DNA of 42,975 bases, from positions 1 through 42,975 of IMG/VR virus record IMGVR_UViG_3300006880_000029; one strand, 5' to 3'. Source of the stretch: a virus. Position 1 is the first letter of the stretch; each line of letters opens with the position of its first letter. The translations under genes and the position numbers were made by a program. Below the pieces are notes generated by a model. It did no database searches, was not told the origin of the DNA, and saw only the letters and a program-made list of their open reading frames with translations. This document shows, piece by piece, positions 2,189 to 22,452 of the stretch.

Positions 2189-3376
2189 TCAACGATCGCG
2201 AATGAGCCACTCGCGTTCACCATCGGGTTTTCCGGTTCGCTCACCGAGGTTGCCATCCAGCGCGTTGCGCACCTGCGTGGCTATCCACCTGCCGCACTGG
2301 ACCGTGATACCCTTACCCCACGTCGCCTTCAGACTTCCCATGTGCCGCAGTGGCATGATGTTCCAGTTATCCGGAAATCCCATGACGCGTGCCGCCTCGC
2401 GATGTGTGATCGTGCGCGGTTCGTACGGATGGAGCACCGCGTCGAGAGCGGCACCCGTAATCACGCGTGCCGGCTTCTCTGGATCCCACCTAATAACGGT
2501 CGTGAAGCCCATGTGCCACTCGTTGGCCATGAGCTTGTCCTTCATACCGTTCCACGACGGCGGCAGGTAGCCAAACGTCTCGTAGCAGTGCTTCGCCATC
2601 TGTCCAATGTGCCAACCGGACGGCCAGCCACCGTCACGCTCGGCGAGTGCCATGAGGTCGAGCGCCCGACGAATCGGAACGCCGTCGCGCGACGCGTGGC
2701 CGTCGAACGTCGTGTTGACGCGCACGCCCTCGCGCTCTCCCCACCACGTCGCGGGTCGTCGGTAGGGCTGCTGCTGCCAGGTCAGCGCGTGTCCACGTAG
2801 ATCGTCCCAGATCTCACGCAGAATCGGCTTGCGCACACGCGGATACGTAACGCCGAACGGCACGCGCGACGCGACCCAGAAGTACCGTGGGCGACGAGCG
2901 GCGCCTCCCAGTTCGATCGCGTCCTGGAACACGTGGTACAGCTCGTACTTGAGGCCGGTGAGCTCCTCGAGCTTGGCGCGCAGCGCGGTCATCAACGAGC
3001 GGCCACCTGAGTACGCAAGACGCACAGATTCCATTACCACAATGGTTGGTCGAACGCGCGCCGCGTACTCCATCAGTGCCCACATGCACGCGTTGACCTT
3101 GGCGTCGATTCCTCGATGTCGCTGGTCGGTCATGGCAGAGAAGCCACTACACGGCGGGTTGGCTGCCACGAAGTCAATCTCACGCGGCGCGTGCCACGTG
3201 GTGTAGTCGCAGGCCTGCGACGTCCAGTTCTGGCCCAGTAGGTGTCGATTCACGAGGCAGTTTTTCATGCCGAACCCGCCCTGTTGCTCGACCTTGTGAA
3301 CGAGCTCGAAGCCGGCCTGCACCACTCCGAGGTCAAATCCACCGGCGAAGCTCTGACACGCGATGAATCGATACAC
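2189..3376 (-). CDS. DNA (cytosine-5-)methyltransferase
   Basis: 395 residues. It transfers a methyl group from S-adenosylmethionine to C5 of cytosine in DNA. Motif I is FAGGFDLG (residues 10-17), motif IV is NPPCSGFS with catalytic Cys76, motif VI is the variant VMESVRL (ESV rather than ENV), motif VIII is RRPRYFW, and the C-terminal HREAARVMGFP is the conserved motif IX/X region. The first half of the enzyme is complete and the target-recognition region follows. Start GTG has TAGGA upstream. No restriction endonuclease is adjacent, so it probably protects phage DNA or marks it. It sits downstream of the sugar and nucleotide cassette, which raises the question how it works with the possible modified cytosine proposed for this phage. 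Confidence 0.85.
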   Translation of the reverse strand: MYRFIACQSFAGGFDLGVVQAGFELVHKVEQQGGFGMKNCLVNRHLLGQNWTSQACDYTTWHAPREIDFVAANPPCSGFSAMTDQRHRGIDAKVNACMWALMEYAARVRPTIVVMESVRLAYSGGRSLMTALRAKLEELTGLKYELYHVFQDAIELGGAARRPRYFWVASRVPFGVTYPRVRKPILREIWDDLRGHALTWQQQPYRRPATWWGEREGVRVNTTFDGHASRDGVPIRRALDLMALAERDGGWPSGWHIGQMAKHCYETFGYLPPSWNGMKDKLMANEWHMGFTTVIRWDPEKPARVITGAALDAVLHPYEPRTITHREAARVMGFPDNWNIMPLRHMGSLKATWGKGITVQCGRWIATQVRNALDGNLGERTGKPDGEREWLIRDR

Positions 3377-11125: not shown

Positions 11126-12751
11126 TTAGTACTCCTCGGTGGGGTGACCAACGAACGATCCGATGATGAGTTGCTCCTCCGCGTCGATCGCCGACGTGTC
11201 CGCGTGGACGTTCGCCTTGAGCAGTGTGGCACGATCACGCGTCAGCTCGTCAAGTCGCTGAAGCTTCTCATGAAGACGCTCGATCACCTTCTCTTCCACC
11301 GTGTCACGCGTCACGATGTCGATGATAAGAATGCGCTTGTGCTTCTCTGCGCCCGGACGATGTGGTCGATCTTCCTTCTGCTTCTCGGACACCAGCGACC
11401 ACGACCGCTGAATGTTGATCAGCGTGTCCGAGGCCGACATGTCCAGACCCACGCCACCGGCCTGGTTAGTAAAGAGCAGCGCCCTGATGCGCCGAGCGTT
11501 GAGGTCATCAAGCGCGCGCTCACGATCGATCTCTCCCACCGCACCGGTTATGAGACCGTAGCGCACTCCCAGCTTACCGAGACGCGTCGCGGCGAGGTCG
11601 ATCAACTGGCGATGCTCGGCGGCGATTAAGACGGGTGGGCCGTCGTACCCCACCGTTAACACGCCTAGCTCGGCGAGCGTCTCTTCGAGGACGTCCAACT
11701 TCGGCGACGGTTCGCGCAACGTCCAGCGCCACGTGGTGACGTCATCGGGATTAATCTTCTCGATGTTGACCGACGCGGCGGCAAGCTGCATGAGGCGCGT
11801 CTGCGCGCTGAGATTGGTCTTGGCGACCAGCAGCTCTCCGTCCTCGGTCATCGCGATCAGGCTCTTCTCTAGTTCGCGGTATGTCTTAAGCTGCGCGGTG
11901 GGCAGCTCAGCGTACCGAATCTCACGTACCTTCGGCGGCAACTGCGGTAGCACCACGGCCTTCAGGACGCGGCGGAAGCGCGGGTCGAGCAGCTTAAACA
12001 GCTCGTCGCGGGTGTCCGGACGGATGCCGACGATGTCCGTGCCGCCGAACGCGTTCCACGAAATCAAGCAAAAGCGATCCACGAATTTACCACGAACAGG
12101 AAAGTCATCCGGTGCGACGGTGTGCATGATCGACCACAGGTCACCTGGATGATTTGCGATCGGCGTGCCTGTTAGCGCCCAGCGGTACCGTACTCCCTTG
12201 CTGTGCGCCACGTGCCAGATGGCGCGTGTCTGCAACGCCTTAGGATCCTTAATGCGGTGTGCCTCATCGAGAATGAACGTTTGGAACGTGAAGTCGTTTA
12301 GTGCCTTGTGATGCACGTCGCACCGCGCCGGAGTGAGATTCTCGTCACCGTGACGAGGATCACACTCGCGACAGCGCTTAAGACGTATCGAGCCGTACGG
12401 CGCGAGTCGACTGAACAGCCGAACGGCCTCGATGTTCATGATGACGAGCGCGGTAGGATCGCCTAACGCAGACTTGAGCACCTTGCGGCGTTGAACCGCG
12501 GTGCCTTCGATCACGTACGGCGTCGCCTCGGGCAACCAGCGCGCGGCCTCGCGACGCCAATGTCGCTTTACCGAGTTTGGGCAAATCACGACGGCCGGTA
12601 AGCCCTCACCTGAGATCTTTTGCGCAACGCGAATTACGCTCAACAATTGAGGAGTCTTGCCTCAACCGGAGCCCATCTCATCTCCAAGTAGACCACTCTT
12701 TACGGCTAGCATGAAGAGTACTCCGGCCTCCTGAAACGGATACAGGCTCAT
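11126..12751 (-). CDS. SNF2-type helicase, C-terminal part with in-frame TGA in Walker A
   Basis: An ATG at 12751 overlaps the HNH stop (ATGA) and opens MSLYPFQEAGVLFMLAVK, the start of the SF2/SNF2 core. The motif I region reads LLGDEMGSG, then TGA (12664-12662), then GKTPQLL. Without readthrough or bypass the core would be split; an internal TTG at 12646 could give only a P-loop-less 506-residue protein. Downstream motifs are intact: DEAHRIKD (II), TGTPIAN (III), QAGGVGLDMS (V) and QRSWSLVSEKQKEDRPHRPG (VI), plus a CREC...C...CDVHH zinc insert. It is the C-terminal part of a chromatin-remodeller-like phage helicase whose N-terminus lies at 13203-13568, beyond the HNH gene. Activity depends on how the TGA is handled. 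Confidence 0.75.
12647..12667 (-). other. Hairpin at the in-frame stop (candidate recoding site)
   Basis: On the minus strand GGT-TGA-GGC is followed by AAG ACT. TTGAGG (12665-12660) pairs perfectly with CCTCAA (12652-12647) around CAAGACT, so a 6-bp hairpin begins at the stop codon itself. The codons on either side of TGA are both Gly, and slipping from GGU to GGC would give exactly DEMGSGKT, the normal SNF2 P-loop. This resembles the layout of the T4 gene 60 bypass. It could also be a plain 6-base insertion. Confidence 0.45.
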
Positions 12752-13215
12752 TGGGCATCACCTCCAATCAGGTGCAGACGAACACAATCACACCGACAAG
12801 GTTCATTCTTAGTGATGCAACGGTAATGATGATACATATGTGCACCGTTGCTCGGGAACACAATGAGATTACTGATGTCGTTGTTCTTCTTATCTAGGTC
12901 TTCGTGGTGAACAACTTCACCTGATCGAAGTGGTCGACCGAGAACACGTTCGGCCACTACGCGATGTTGATGAACCTGATTTTCCTTAACATACGTGTAA
13001 GATTGATCACTCTTTGTCGTGCCACGCTTCCGTTTGTTGGCCTCCGCACCTCGTTGTGCACCCTTGAGCGTGTGCTCAACGTCTTCTTGGTTGTAACGGC
13101 GCATCCAACAGGTACGGTTACAGTGACGCTTAGCGTGATAGATACGACCGTTCTTACCGGGTCGAAGTTCGAACTCACTTCCACAACCTTCGCAGATGCG
13201 TGTCACGTGCGCCAC
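12748..13215 (-). CDS. HNH homing endonuclease
   Basis: 155 residues. The N-terminus has CEGCGSEFELRPG and CNRTCWMRRY (a Cys4 zinc finger), and the nuclease motif reads HQHRVVAERVLGR...GEVVHHEDLDKKNNDISNL, the His-His and Asn of an HNH/H-N-H site. Further Cys-His pairs follow. The gene occupies nearly all the DNA between the two parts of the helicase: its GTG start overlaps the end of the N-terminal part and its stop overlaps the ATG of the C-terminal part. No room remains for a ribozyme intron and it is in a different frame, so this is a free-standing homing gene inserted into the helicase, not an intein. Confidence 0.85.
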   Translation of the reverse strand: MAHVTRICEGCGSEFELRPGKNGRIYHAKRHCNRTCWMRRYNQEDVEHTLKGAQRGAEANKRKRGTTKSDQSYTYVKENQVHQHRVVAERVLGRPLRSGEVVHHEDLDKKNNDISNLIVFPSNGAHMYHHYRCITKNEPCRCDCVRLHLIGGDAQ

Positions 13216-13568
13216 GACTTCAACACTTCCAGTTCAGGAGAGTCACCATCATCAAGTGGTTCCAACGCGGTACGCAGCTCGACCGCTCGATCGACCCACT
13301 CGCGACGCAGTGCCCACGTCCACTCGATCAGGCGCTCGCTCAGCGTCAACTGCTCCTTGAACACGCCACGCAGTATGACGAGCGACGCCCACGACTTCGG
13401 CACCACCCAGTAGCGCCCGAGCGCGTCGTAGCGCGCGCCGGGAACCAGCGTAATGATGGCCTTCTCGTTCCACACCGTGTGAACGAGGATCCGATCCGAG
13501 GTGGGATCGTAGTCGGCGTGAGCCACGTGGAACTCCGAACGAACGCGTGAGTCGTGCAGTTGGCGCAA
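13203..13568 (-). CDS. SNF2-type helicase, N-terminal part
   Basis: 121 residues. ILVHTVWNEKAIITLVPGAR and YDALGRYWVVPKSWASLVIL are typical of the HARP-like N-terminal region that precedes the helicase core in phage SNF2 proteins. The frame stops at WRT-TGA where LYPFQ... would be expected; the rest of the protein is encoded at 11126-12751 after the HNH gene. Start overlaps nothing and follows the RuvC gene by 26 bases. The two parts might associate as separate chains. Confidence 0.65.
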   Translation of the reverse strand: MRQLHDSRVRSEFHVAHADYDPTSDRILVHTVWNEKAIITLVPGARYDALGRYWVVPKSWASLVILRGVFKEQLTLSERLIEWTWALRREWVDRAVELRTALEPLDDGDSPELEVLKSWRT

Positions 13569-14068: not shown

Positions 14069-14451
14069 AGCGCAACCGTGGCGGTCATGACCGGGAGCGA
14101 CGCAAAACCGTGTTGGTAGTAGATCTCGAGACCGCTGAGCGCCGCCACCTCGAACTTCGCACGTGCGCCGACGCTGCGCTCCCAGTTACGCAGGAGGTAG
14201 ATGCCGTCGCACGTTAGCAGCTCACGCAGGTCACCACGAATGAAGCACGCCGTGCTGTCGTGCTGCGGGTAATCACTGGCGAACGGCTTGGCGTACCCAC
14301 GGGGACACGCATCCTCGTGCTCATGTGGAGGGCAGTCGTGCGGAACGATCGCCTCGTGGCCGGCGCTTTCCACGTAGCGTGCGGCCGCACGAAACGCGCT
14401 GAGGTTGCCGTTCTGGTAGCCGTTGATCGGGCCACTGACGTAGATCTTCAC
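14065..14451 (-). CDS. DUF4406 / nucleoside deoxyribosyltransferase-like protein
   Basis: 128 residues. IYVSGPINGYQNGN at the start and LLTCDGIYLLRNWERSVGARAKFEVAAL near the end are the two signature regions of DUF4406, a family with the nucleoside 2-deoxyribosyltransferase fold. The loop between them is rich in His and Cys. Start GTG overlaps the polymerase stop. It may act on a nucleoside or nucleotide and could help make or clear modified bases; this part is inference. Confidence 0.7.
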   Translation of the reverse strand: MKIYVSGPINGYQNGNLSAFRAAARYVESAGHEAIVPHDCPPHEHEDACPRGYAKPFASDYPQHDSTACFIRGDLRELLTCDGIYLLRNWERSVGARAKFEVAALSGLEIYYQHGFASLPVMTATVAL

Positions 14452-17255
14452 GCTGACTCCTTCAGTTCAACCCACTCTTTAACGCTACCCCACCGCTGGC
14501 CGATCTCAACCGACGTCGTCACGGGTACGCGCAGCAGTTCATCATCATTCATGATGTCGTTGAGCGCCGCCACGACGTCGCTGAGTTCCTCATTGGGAAC
14601 GTCGAGGTCCAGCTCGTCGTGTACCGGCAGCGTCATGTACGGATCGAGACCGGCCTGGTCGCACTCGACGAGCTTCATCTTAAGAATCTCACCGGCCGTT
14701 CCCTGGATCAGGTAGTTCACCAGCGTGTACAGCCGTCCGGCGTCAGCGACGTGGCGACGACCGGTCAACGGCGACCGAACGTACGCCTCACCCTCGGCGT
14801 CGAGTCGAGAGAGACCGAGCTTCTCGACGTGCCTGATCCAGGTCGGAACACCCGGGTACAGCGCGTCGAAGCGTCGCATGAAGTCGGCGGCCTCCTGAAT
14901 CGGAGCGCCGGCGGTCTTGGCGAATTTGTCGATCCCGGCCCCGTAGATTTTCGCGTACCCTGAGTTACCTGTGATTAATGGCGTACGTCCCTGTCGCATG
15001 GTCCATGTACCGAGTTCGGTGGTAACGCACCACACGGGTTGCCGCGCGGTAGGTGTTGCTGTGGTTCGCTGGCCGGTCATTGTCGGTAGCTGGTAGTTAA
15101 TGACGTCAACTGCGTTGCGCTGCCAACCTCGACCGTTCGGCTGTCGAACATAGACACGCGAGAAATGTCCAGTTAGATAGCCAAGTGCAATGATGAGTTC
15201 AGAAACAGAAGATTGATGCGCTTGTGTAATGGAAACGTACCTGTACTTAGCGTGTCCGCCGTCACCGGCGTTTAGCGTTTCAATCATGGCGCGTCGCGCA
15301 CTCGGTGCTAGCGCAAGCGCTACCTGCCACGGGTCAAATGTGCGCTTGTCATGAATGCCAATGCGTTCAAGAACGGATCGTGCCCACGTTGGGTCAATCA
15401 GCCACGAAACGCCGATCTTATCATTGCGATGCGACTCGTAACGTCGATGAGGTATGTCAGCTAGCAGAGTATCGATCTCGGTAACACGGTGCTTCTTCAC
15501 TTGCCCGATGTTCATAGAGCAAGCGACCTTCGCACCGCCTGCCTGCGACGTCTTACCGGTAAATTTTCCGCGCGTAATCGAACCATCGCTGAGTACCCAT
15601 CCAAGAACGGCGGCTTCCTGATCGGTCACGTTGGCGGTGCCCTCGACGCACTCAGCCGCGAGGATCGCTCGGTAACCGGATCCCGAAAGTTCAGCGGTTG
15701 TTAAGAACTTAAGGTTATGAGTCTTCTCGTGCTCGGTGATCCAACGATGACCGTGTGTCGTCTCAAACGATCGATCACGATTGCCGAATCGCACGACGTC
15801 GGCGTCATCGTAGTGGTGAACAGCCGTTACTCGGGTCCAACGTGTTCGACGAGTGGCGAGATCGTATCCGAGTGTTTGATCACCGACCGCGATCTCGTCG
15901 TGCTTCAGCCAACCTCGCTGCGTAAGAATTTCGGTGTCGAGTGGAACACAGTTCTTAACGAACTGCCGGCGCGGGTCGGACTTCTGGAAGTTGGGATCGT
16001 TGAACAGGTCACGTGCCATGTTCACGAAGAAGTCACCCTCGCTCATGAACGCCTTGATCATACCCTGTTCACTCGTGAGGTGCGCTAATAATCTCATTTC
16101 GATCTGATCGAAATCCGCCTTCACCCACGTGTGGCCTTCGTTCGCGATGAAGCAGTTCCGAACCTTCTTACCCTCCTTGGTGCGCACCGGCACGTTCTGC
16201 AGGTTCGGGTTGTTCATCGACATGCGACCGGTGCGGACGCCGCTGGAGCCACCGGACTCGAAGGCGTTCTTGTTGGTGCCGCCCACGGTGTTGATCGACG
16301 GATGAATGCGCTCGTCGATCTCGGTCAACTCCAGGAAGTGATCGAGGTACGTCGACACGAGCTTGACGGCCTGGCGACGACCGAGCGTCGCCTGCGCCAG
16401 TGGATGCGCGAGCTCGGCGAGTACCTCCTTGTCGAGTGACCAGCCGGTCTTCGTGCGCTTGTAGAGGTCGACGCCGTCGTCGATCAGCGCCTGCGCGACG
16501 GCTCGGTTTGAACCGGGGTAGACGTTGTAGTGCTCCTGGCACCAGGTCTCGACGTCGGTCGAGTACTGAATGAGACTATCCCTGAACCTCGTCGTGTACG
16601 CGCGATCAACCCGGACGCCGTTGCGCTGCATCTTCGCCGCGACCCACGCGGTGGCCATCTCGAGGTCGTACGATCGGGGAGCCTCGGCCTGCACGCGTGG
16701 CCACAGATGATTCTTAACGCGGCTCGTGAGAATGGTGTCGATTCCCGCGTAGAACCAGTAGGGCTCGAAGTCGTACGGAATGGTGGCCCACGTCCAGCCG
16801 CCACGCTTCGAGAGCACGTCGTGAAGCTGCTCCTGGCCCAGAACGGCGTGAGGCCCAACGATCTTCTTGGCCGCGCTCTTCAACGCCAGTGAACCGGTCG
16901 ACTCCAGAACGTGCAGCATGAACCGCGTGTCGCGCACACGATGAATGGGAATGTTGACGTCGTGATTGGCGCACATGCCCACGTCGTACGGGGCGTTGTG
17001 CATGTCGTACCAGCCCTCGTACCGCCGCACGACGTCGTGTACGAGACCGGACCAGCGCTCGAACGGTATCACCCAGGCGCGCGTCTCGTCGCCGAACTGG
17101 ACCAGGCGCACGCGATCTCGCTGGAGATCGAGGCCGGTGGTCTCGGTGTCGAACGCGACCTCGGACTTGGTGGACAGCCAGCGGGTGAACTCCCAGGCCT
17201 CGTCGATCGAGTCGATGAGTGTGACCTGGACGTCGTCCAGGCTCATCTGGTGCAC
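14448..17255 (-). CDS. polA: DNA polymerase I family, with intein
   Basis: 935 residues encoded; 606 after removal of a 329-residue intein. The 3'-5' exonuclease has FDTET (Asp36, Glu38), NAPYD (87-91) and YAGID (169-173). The polymerase has RTGRMSMNNPNLQN, motif A VKADFDQIEMR (Asp381) and motif C PVHDELD (879-881). There is no 5' nuclease domain. The O-helix is split by the intein between N435 and S765; spliced it reads RRQFVKN+SGYAKIYG. Tyr767 stands at the place of E. coli Phe762, as in T7 polymerase. GTG at 17255 is given; ATG at 17246 is equally possible. Replicative polymerase of the phage. Confidence 0.9.
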   Translation of the reverse strand: MHQMSLDDVQVTLIDSIDEAWEFTRWLSTKSEVAFDTETTGLDLQRDRVRLVQFGDETRAWVIPFERWSGLVHDVVRRYEGWYDMHNAPYDVGMCANHDVNIPIHRVRDTRFMLHVLESTGSLALKSAAKKIVGPHAVLGQEQLHDVLSKRGGWTWATIPYDFEPYWFYAGIDTILTSRVKNHLWPRVQAEAPRSYDLEMATAWVAAKMQRNGVRVDRAYTTRFRDSLIQYSTDVETWCQEHYNVYPGSNRAVAQALIDDGVDLYKRTKTGWSLDKEVLAELAHPLAQATLGRRQAVKLVSTYLDHFLELTEIDERIHPSINTVGGTNKNAFESGGSSGVRTGRMSMNNPNLQNVPVRTKEGKKVRNCFIANEGHTWVKADFDQIEMRLLAHLTSEQGMIKAFMSEGDFFVNMARDLFNDPNFQKSDPRRQFVKNCVPLDTEILTQRGWLKHDEIAVGDQTLGYDLATRRTRWTRVTAVHHYDDADVVRFGNRDRSFETTHGHRWITEHEKTHNLKFLTTAELSGSGYRAILAAECVEGTANVTDQEAAVLGWVLSDGSITRGKFTGKTSQAGGAKVACSMNIGQVKKHRVTEIDTLLADIPHRRYESHRNDKIGVSWLIDPTWARSVLERIGIHDKRTFDPWQVALALAPSARRAMIETLNAGDGGHAKYRYVSITQAHQSSVSELIIALGYLTGHFSRVYVRQPNGRGWQRNAVDVINYQLPTMTGQRTTATPTARQPVWCVTTELGTWTMRQGRTPLITGNSGYAKIYGAGIDKFAKTAGAPIQEAADFMRRFDALYPGVPTWIRHVEKLGLSRLDAEGEAYVRSPLTGRRHVADAGRLYTLVNYLIQGTAGEILKMKLVECDQAGLDPYMTLPVHDELDLDVPNEELSDVVAALNDIMNDDELLRVPVTTSVEIGQRWGSVKEWVELKESA
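14964..15950 (-). mobile_element. Intein in DNA polymerase with LAGLIDADG endonuclease
   Basis: 329 residues starting at Cys436 (CVPLDTEILTQRGW, block A) and ending at Asn764 with Ser765 as +1 residue. Block B is FETTHGHRW; block F/G is QPVWCVTTELGTWTM and PLITGN. The penultimate residue is Gly, not the common His. The middle carries VLGWVLSDGSI and MIETLNAGDGG, the paired helices of a LAGLIDADG homing endonuclease, so the element looks able to spread. It interrupts the O-helix, the most conserved dNTP-binding segment. Confidence 0.9.
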
Positions 17256-22146: not shown

Positions 22147-22293
22147 GAGTGATCCGCTGAGCGTGCAAGTGCTTTCGGCGTTTAGGCGCTCTCGGCCGCT
22201 GAGCTACGAGCCTCGGAAGGCTCGGTGGGATTTGAACCCACGTCTCTCCATTTGCAGTGGATAACCGATCGCGGTCAGCTCCACGGATCACTC
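22147..22293 (-). ncRNA. Permuted tRNA-like RNA, Cys(GCA)-like
   Basis: Leader (from 22293) and trailer (to 22147) form a helix of about 16 bp with one G-U and one mismatch, incl. GAGTGATCC/GGATCACTC. Next come TCGG/CCGA, an anticodon hairpin CCA-CTGCAAA-TGG (GCA at 22255-22253), T arm GTGGG-TTCAAAT-CCCAC, 3' acceptor CGAGCCT (22224-22218), tetraloop TCCG, 5' acceptor AGGCTCG (22213-22207) and D arm GCTC...GAGC. Acceptor strands pair 7/7. The linker is a UNCG-type tetraloop, which suggests a stable capped stem. Confidence 0.8.
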
Positions 22294-22307
22294 TTAAGTT
22301 GTTACGC

Positions 22308-22452
22308 GTAAGACGCTGAGCGTGTGAGTGCTTTCGGGTTTTAGCGCTCTGCCAGTTGAGCTACGGGCCCAGGTGGTGGACCCGACAGGACTCGAACCTG
22401 CAACCTCTCCATTAGAAGTGGATAACCGATCGCGTTCAGCTCAGCTTCTCAC
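22308..22452 (-). ncRNA. Permuted tRNA-like RNA, Arg(UCU)-like
   Basis: Leader GTGAGAAGCTGAGC (22452-22439) pairs with trailer GCTCAGCGTCTTAC (22321-22308), 13 of 14 including a G-U. Then TCGG/CCGA, anticodon hairpin TCCA-CTTCTAA-TGGA (UCU at 22416-22414), T arm GCAGG-TTCGAGT-CCTGT, 3' acceptor CGGGTCC with ACCA encoded after it, 5' acceptor GGGCCCG (22370-22364) and D arm GCTC...GAGC. Acceptor strands pair 7/7 (one G-U). An encoded CCA inside the linker hints at a tRNA origin. Confidence 0.8.

Follow-up and report, generated by a model that had tools for sequence, protein, structure and literature searches.

The window analyzed here is the IMG/VR virus record IMGVR_UViG_3300006880_000029, positions 1 to 42,975, a virus contig of 42975 bases. 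Its minus strand encodes an SNF2 helicase in a frame that runs from an ATG at 12751 to a TAA at 11126 and is broken, on direct reading, by an in-frame TGA within the P-loop (GDEMGSG-TGA-GKTPQ, that is, GDEMGSG|GKT). The head of the helicase core (12665–12751) consists of the ATG and 28 further codons, GDEMGSG being complete after 29 codons with GGT (12667–12665), the putative take-off codon. A 6-nt insert (12659–12664) follows, made up of the stop TGA (12664–12662) and the putative landing codon GGC (12661–12659). The tail (11126–12658) begins with AAG (12658–12656) and reads KTPQ... through 510 open codons to the TAA, with Pfam matches to SNF2-rel_dom (4e-28) and Helicase_C (7e-10). The initial annotation had described both the TGA between GGT and GGC, as a 6-nt interruption of the P-loop, and the intact helicase downstream of it, and direct reading and the Pfam matches confirm them.

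A Shine-Dalgarno-like GGAGG (12761–12765, minus strand, direct reading) lies 9 nt before the ATG of the core. An intact HNH endonuclease gene (12748–13206, minus strand; GTG start at 13206 or 13215; HNH_3 domain, PF13392, 6e-10) is located 92 nt upstream of the P-loop interruption and divides the helicase gene in two. Its stop overlaps the core ATG (ATGA), and one of its GTG starts is overlapped (GTGA) by the TGA stop of a 121-residue ORF (13203–13568 as listed, minus strand, start provisional), identified by tblastn as the detached N-terminal domain of the helicase. In a first scan, the region preceding LYPFQ was matched by tblastn in 53 of 60 relatives, where the N-terminal domain is fused to the helicase; an HNH gene at the helicase was seen in none of the 60.

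In L063, the relative closest in gene order, whose DNA polymerase is 56% identical, the protein is continuous, GDDPELYPFQ...GDQLGTGKT, and the N-terminal domain and the core are contiguous. L063 lacks a 487-nt segment containing the HNH gene (12743–13229, minus strand), which in the window is found between two CTG codons (...DDPEL|YPFQ... in the relative). Since the gene is unbroken in L063, the helicase gene of the window is in pieces, split by this 487-nt insertion. The inserted segment has a G+C content of 0.50, against 0.63 for the window as a whole. Low G+C and odd codon use extend about 150 nt beyond the insertion and include the TGA, and a codon score as low as this occurs in 56 of 2066 native windows. 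Such a composition run is what homing co-conversion would leave, and is suggestive only.

Two other explanations of the locus were rejected. For a group I intron carrying the HNH ORF, no intron RNA core was found, and an Rfam gathering search of the window returned only tRNAs. Reassignment of TGA to sense was set aside because TGA is an ordinary stop here, ending 19 of the 31 selected ORFs longer than 150 residues.

Several other features of the window were recorded. One Rfam tRNA match (22217–22370, minus strand; 154 nt, full model, 38 bits) carries about 80 extra internal bases and was not called by ARAGORN. The family A DNA polymerase gene (14448–17255, minus strand) contains about 325 extra residues (approximately 437–763) between VKN and SGYAKIYGAG that are absent from four relatives and look like an intein. 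A Ro60-like protein with TROVE and Ro60 vWA matches is also encoded on this virus contig (20038–21711, minus strand).

Interrupted P-loops downstream of HNH genes

The initial annotation had proposed that relatives without the six extra bases would count against a functional insert. The insert is indeed missing in all 53 first-scan relatives with a visible P-loop; however, this comparison does not discriminate, because relatives without the HNH gene lack an insert and relatives bearing one usually have an insert. Named phages with the best HNH matches likewise have a helicase gene shortly downstream of the HNH. Three such regions were read and gave two more broken P-loops, in Ruminococcus phage NatCom_23091 (GGT|TGAC|AAA) and Glutamicibacter phage Montesquieu (L068; ATG|TAGCTAATC|GGA), and one intact P-loop, in Corynebacterium phage StAB (GLGMGKT). 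Seven further regions, some of them chosen for split-looking annotation, contained three more interruptions (L081, L082 and L084), with the HNH gene not directly upstream.

A survey was then based on an alignment of four HNH sequences, and the selection of loci was blind to the P-loop, except that the window itself was included. It yielded 42 loci in bacterial genomes and, from IMG/VR, 80 kept of 191; a single-sequence HNH query had returned only one weak locus in IMG/VR. Frame-aware alignment and direct reading identified a helicase P-loop at 98 loci, which form 76 clusters. In 87 of these loci, grouped in 67 clusters, the HNH match ends 65–214 nt before the P-loop lysine codon of a downstream SNF2 helicase. 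The HNH ORF reaches at least 100 residues in 86 of the 87. At L070, the Ruminococcus phage locus, the HNH ORF (2998–3246) is frameshifted and the interrupted helicase is still open.

The P-loop is interrupted in 55 of the 67 HNH-linked clusters. An in-frame stop directly follows a P-loop codon in 52 of them, as in the GGT-TGA of the window, another three are interrupted without a stop, and 12 are uninterrupted; these counts come from an automatic table corrected by reading the DNA by hand. The three without a stop (L142, L177 and L180) have gaps of 1, 17 and 7 nt, with CGG, CCA and CTA as the next codon. The interruption is placed after the methionine, after either glycine or between the glycines, and affects helicases of the DMGLG, EMGTG, MGCG and DEMGSG types. 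The weakest case is L116 (GGT|TG|AAA), whose head has another in-frame stop eight codons upstream.

All 12 uninterrupted HNH-linked P-loops, of which L083 and L102 were scored intact by reading, are non-canonical, having KS or a replacement of the methionine by C, P, F or L: GLGMGKT, DMGLGKS, SFGLGKT, ACGLGKT (twice), GMGMGKS, ECGLGKT, GLGMGKS, NEMGLGKS, DEMGLGKS, DPGLGKS and DCGLGKS. Lys-Thr is present in 55 of 55 interrupted clusters versus 5 of 12 uninterrupted ones (p 9e-7). Thus an uninterrupted canonical MGxGKT occurs in none of the 67 HNH-linked clusters, and 47 such P-loops occur among relatives without an HNH gene (L002–L061 and L330–L359). This pattern would be expected if the nuclease recognized MGxGKT DNA and carriers escaped either by a residue change or by an insert of a few bases. 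Where an HNH locus has no SNF2 match, another P-loop-like sequence (TSGAGKT, STGGGKT, ATGLGKT or PPGGGKT; L088, L090, L131, L138, L140, L185, L192, L193, L201 and others) frequently begins the following gene, and Walker A DNA in general may be the target of the HNH group.

As a control, 299 genomes of one bacterial family were surveyed with an intact helicase as query, giving 39 matches, of which 30 loci were retained. P-loops were intact in 28 of the 30 and interrupted in two (L348 and L358). The sole HNH-linked locus of this set, L337, is intact and reads DCGLGKT. Interruption is found in 55 of 67 HNH-linked clusters and 2 of 29 unlinked loci (Fisher p 2e-12), a comparison that sets clusters against loci and so joins unlike units. 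The control motif matched 21 of the 28 intact loci, and 14 of the 21 scored were canonical.

IMG/VR was also scanned for the motif [FL][FL]DMGLG with GGT followed by TRR. Among the matches listed, at least 115 stop-interrupted helicases were recognized in 120 loci, the stop being TAG in 58, TGA in 51 and TAA in 6. An HNH gene was detectable upstream in 21 of the 115 listed loci, or in 19 of the 107 listed with at least 600 nt of upstream sequence, and was not detected within 1200 nt upstream in the other 94 of the 115. Inserts thus persist either without an HNH gene or with one missed by the four queries. Protection from a neighboring nuclease fails to explain these 94 listed loci unless the HNH gene has been lost, has diverged or acts from other phages. 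A DEMG-type pattern with a stop had no match, and a general gapped P-loop pattern was rejected, all 10 of its matches proving on reading to be chance.

The recurrence of similar stop-headed P-loop inserts in the 107 clusters assembled from these sources (see below) is beyond chance. A tree of 146 helicase tails requires at least 27 changes between the interrupted and the intact state and at least 83 changes in the insert sequence. Among 25 independent pairs that contrast in HNH status, interruption follows the HNH gene in an average of 7.5 pairs and runs against it in 0.5 (median p 0.02).

Insert structure and constraint on the downstream frame

The stop-type inserts comprise 130 records in 107 clusters, a set that takes in 76 of the 115 listed motif-scan loci and leaves out L116, L142, L177 and L180. 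Lengths of 4, 5 and 6 nt account for 22, 41 and 20 clusters respectively; the others measure 2 nt (two clusters), 7 (nine), 8 (one), 9 (seven), 10 (three), 11 (one) and 44 nt (one). Among the 6-nt inserts, the form found in the window, GGT|TGAGGC|AAG, is the most frequent (6 of 20 clusters). The 44-nt interruption (L194; GGT|TGA...GGT|TGC GGG AAA ACA) is near the T4 gene 60 gap in size. In 80 of the 107 clusters the length is not a multiple of three, and all three residues are represented. Lys-Thr directly follows the insert in 107 of 107, and the P-loop is always made whole when reading resumes at its next codon.

In 97 clusters the take-off codon encodes glycine. Of these, 62 have GGN as the triplet preceding the resume codon, as with GGT to GGC in the window. 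In the other 35 this triplet is AGC, GAC, AGT, CGC or GAT, an imperfect fit to the tRNA, with C or T as the third base in all 35 (p 9e-13). One tRNA-Gly has the anticodon GCC, and a third base of C or T is what re-pairing by this tRNA would require. The take-off codon is GGT in 37 of 44 HNH-selected glycine cases, compared with 9.6 expected, and the codons before it are unusually uniform, the first glycine being GGC in 74 of 79 and leucine never CTT. Both features may owe something to nuclease recognition or to position effects of the insert. GGT at take-off and GGN at landing can also follow in part from where a short insert falls within GGN. Directly 3' of the stop, 98 of 107 clusters have a G or C, versus 37 of 96 at the real ends of the same genes.

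The initial annotation had further assigned a role to a hairpin at the stop. The 6-bp inverted repeat TTGAGG-CAAGACT-CCTCAA (12647–12665, minus strand; TTGAGG at 12665–12660, CCTCAA at 12652–12647) is real, but a functional part for it is not supported: the folding of the 101 nt around it is no better than that of shuffled sequences (z −0.71), and a perfect 6-bp hairpin begins near the stop in 6 of 107 interrupted clusters versus 2.8% of random positions in the same genes. A search for an RNA structure around the stop common to the 107 clusters found none. The hairpin was therefore dropped as a shared functional signal, and in the window it is probably incidental. As TTGAGG is the reverse complement of the downstream CCTCAA, quasi-palindromic template switching was considered as the origin of TTGAGG; it was set aside in view of the rarity of perfect hairpins at the stop among the other interrupted clusters.

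Tails behind the interruption are of full length in 122 of 123 complete cases, the exception being L214. In 91 pairs of interrupted genes, the median dN/dS is 0.072 and the maximum 0.285. By region, in 230 pairs that are not mutually independent, dN/dS is 0.157 in the head, 0.060 in codons 1–12 after the stop, 0.046 in the next 48 codons and 0.062 in the rest. Synonymous divergence is 0.88 in the 28 codons before the stop versus 2.0–3.2 after it, a difference that may reflect co-conversion or a signal in the head, at the mRNA or DNA level. Most likely, ribosomes pass through or across the insert and make one functional protein from the interrupted gene, since Lys-Thr and the codons after the stop are constrained and a re-initiated downstream fragment would not need them.

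Proposed translation across the insert and its possible role

The likely explanation of the locus, to judge from these comparisons, is that ribosomes skip the insert by a stop-hop and that the insert shields the P-loop DNA from the neighboring HNH homing endonuclease. In the window, peptidyl-tRNA-Gly would leave GGU while UGA occupies the A site, re-pair with GGC six nucleotides on and allow translation to resume at AAG, so that the product would be an uninterrupted GDEMGSGKT. The HNH gene would encode a homing endonuclease targeting helicase P-loop DNA; the insert would destroy the target and the bypass would preserve the protein. Gene and insert probably arrived together by homing and co-conversion, leaving the N-terminal domain, the HNH gene and the core as separate pieces. 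A short GGT to GGC bypass had already been proposed in the initial annotation, and is now the best supported reading from the recurrence of inserts, the restoration of P-loops at every length and purifying selection; the HNH neighbor, the split gene and a probable reason for the insert had been missing from it. For the window itself, this reading draws on the family, through the form of the insert, the intact HNH gene and the open 510-codon tail. Near-identical phage records were not found, the exact two-sided pattern at its site had no match in IMG/VR, and selection on its own tail is unmeasurable because the best relative reaches only about 53% amino acid identity.

We infer the hop from take-off to landing codon because readthrough and a single frameshift fail where resumption at the next P-loop codon always restores the protein. 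The stop contexts TGAC and TAGC do look like those of leaky or shifty stops, and the one extra base of L142 could be a +1 shift. Readthrough, however, fails for the 80 of 107 inserts that are not multiples of three, no single shift serves lengths that span all three residues, and both processes leave residues between the glycine and the lysine. Recoding by readthrough or by +1 or −1 frameshifting is accordingly improbable. A slightly poorer prospect still is re-initiation behind the stop, which would yield the tail as a protein of its own, a helicase fragment with an incomplete P-loop. Several database records (L070, L082 and L084) do place the gene start farther downstream, and NTG codons lie a median of 11 codons past the lysine codon; the first ATG, however, lies a median of 74 codons in, and neither the invariant Lys-Thr nor a dN/dS just after the stop that is as low as in the rest of the tail fits this explanation.

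The helicase could instead be dead, with the insert an inactivating scar, for example from the faulty repair of an HNH cut, and with a young pseudogene as the core. The stop does fall within an essential motif, and in the window the lack of close relatives puts constraint on the tail beyond test. Across the family, however, the complete tails are open in all but one case and constrained with the insert present, and a random scar would rarely be headed by a stop, as 52 of the 55 HNH-linked interruptions are; a dead helicase is thus unlikely. An assembly or sequencing error is hardly credible: the window is a single viral contig for which a near copy was not found, but the same kind of insert is present in the closed chromosome of Geosporobacter ferrireducens (L099) and in the named phages Erysipelothrix phi1605 (L084) and Glutamicibacter Montesquieu.

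The preferred reading, a stop-hop across a protective insert, has its main precedent in phage T4, where mobA and the bypass are reportedly the subject of a 2011 PNAS paper. The mobile HNH gene of T4 genes 39-mobA-60 split a topoisomerase gene, and the 50-nt bypassed insert of gene 60 is thought to protect against the nuclease (PMC5009743 and PMC2988022). As in the window, an HNH gene splits the gene for a DNA-handling ATPase, and the downstream piece has a stop after a glycine codon and then a matched glycine landing codon (same sources). The likeness to gene 60 drawn in the initial annotation thus extends to the stop after take-off and the glycine landing, but not to the take-off stem-loop, which the P-loop inserts do not share, or to the gap of about 50 nt, which is 6 nt in the window and 2–11 nt, once 44 nt, in its relatives. 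The P-loop site and the recurrence across many phages are found here and not in gene 60, and T4 mobA is annotated as defective in the T4 record, unlike nearly all of the HNH ORFs surveyed.

The codon form of the synthetic stop-hops of Weiss et al. (1987) is reportedly one that GGT-TGA-GGC in the window and CTT-TAG-CTT in L184 fit. Those were E. coli constructs, in which nine nucleotides encode one amino acid by way of matched codons (PMC5009743, in part); the P-loop inserts are in natural genes. According to the same 2016 review, no in-frame stop-hop is known to occur in nature. The review also describes the byps of Magnusiomyces capitatus, which are likewise many short frame-blocking inserts skipped in translation, but are mitochondrial, context-independent and spread over many genes, whereas here a single phage helicase motif is affected and the A-site codon is mostly a stop. 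In Aeh1, the HNH gene mobE similarly splits nrdA into separately started pieces, although excerpts of PMC2988022 describe no bypass. For mycobacteriophage Corndog, the authors consider ribosome bypass in a tape-measure gene beside an HNH gene; that case (PMC4351075) involves another gene, for which ACG initiation is equally possible, and no stop-headed P-loop insert. Search listings of the open PMC literature revealed no report of a P-loop or helicase bypass.

The tiny stop-bearing inserts at the same spot in well over 100 further phages and prophages, often next to a homing endonuclease gene, suggest ribosome hopping and hiding of the helicase gene from that nuclease. It is fairly likely, on comparative grounds, that a large family of phage HNH homing endonucleases aims at Walker A DNA and that phages escape through ultrashort silent inserts of many origins, crossed by stop-hops of 2–11 nt and occasionally 44 nt. 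To our knowledge, efficient bacterial bypass is known essentially from T4 gene 60. If the present reading is true, programmed bypass would be a widespread phage strategy and no longer the curiosity of one phage, and these would be the first natural stop-hops. More than 100 short sites with many insert lengths would provide a comparative data set on how ribosomes release and re-find mRNA. Bypass would become a general answer to homing endonucleases, and many phage helicases in the databases would prove to be annotated as truncated or as hypothetical fragments.
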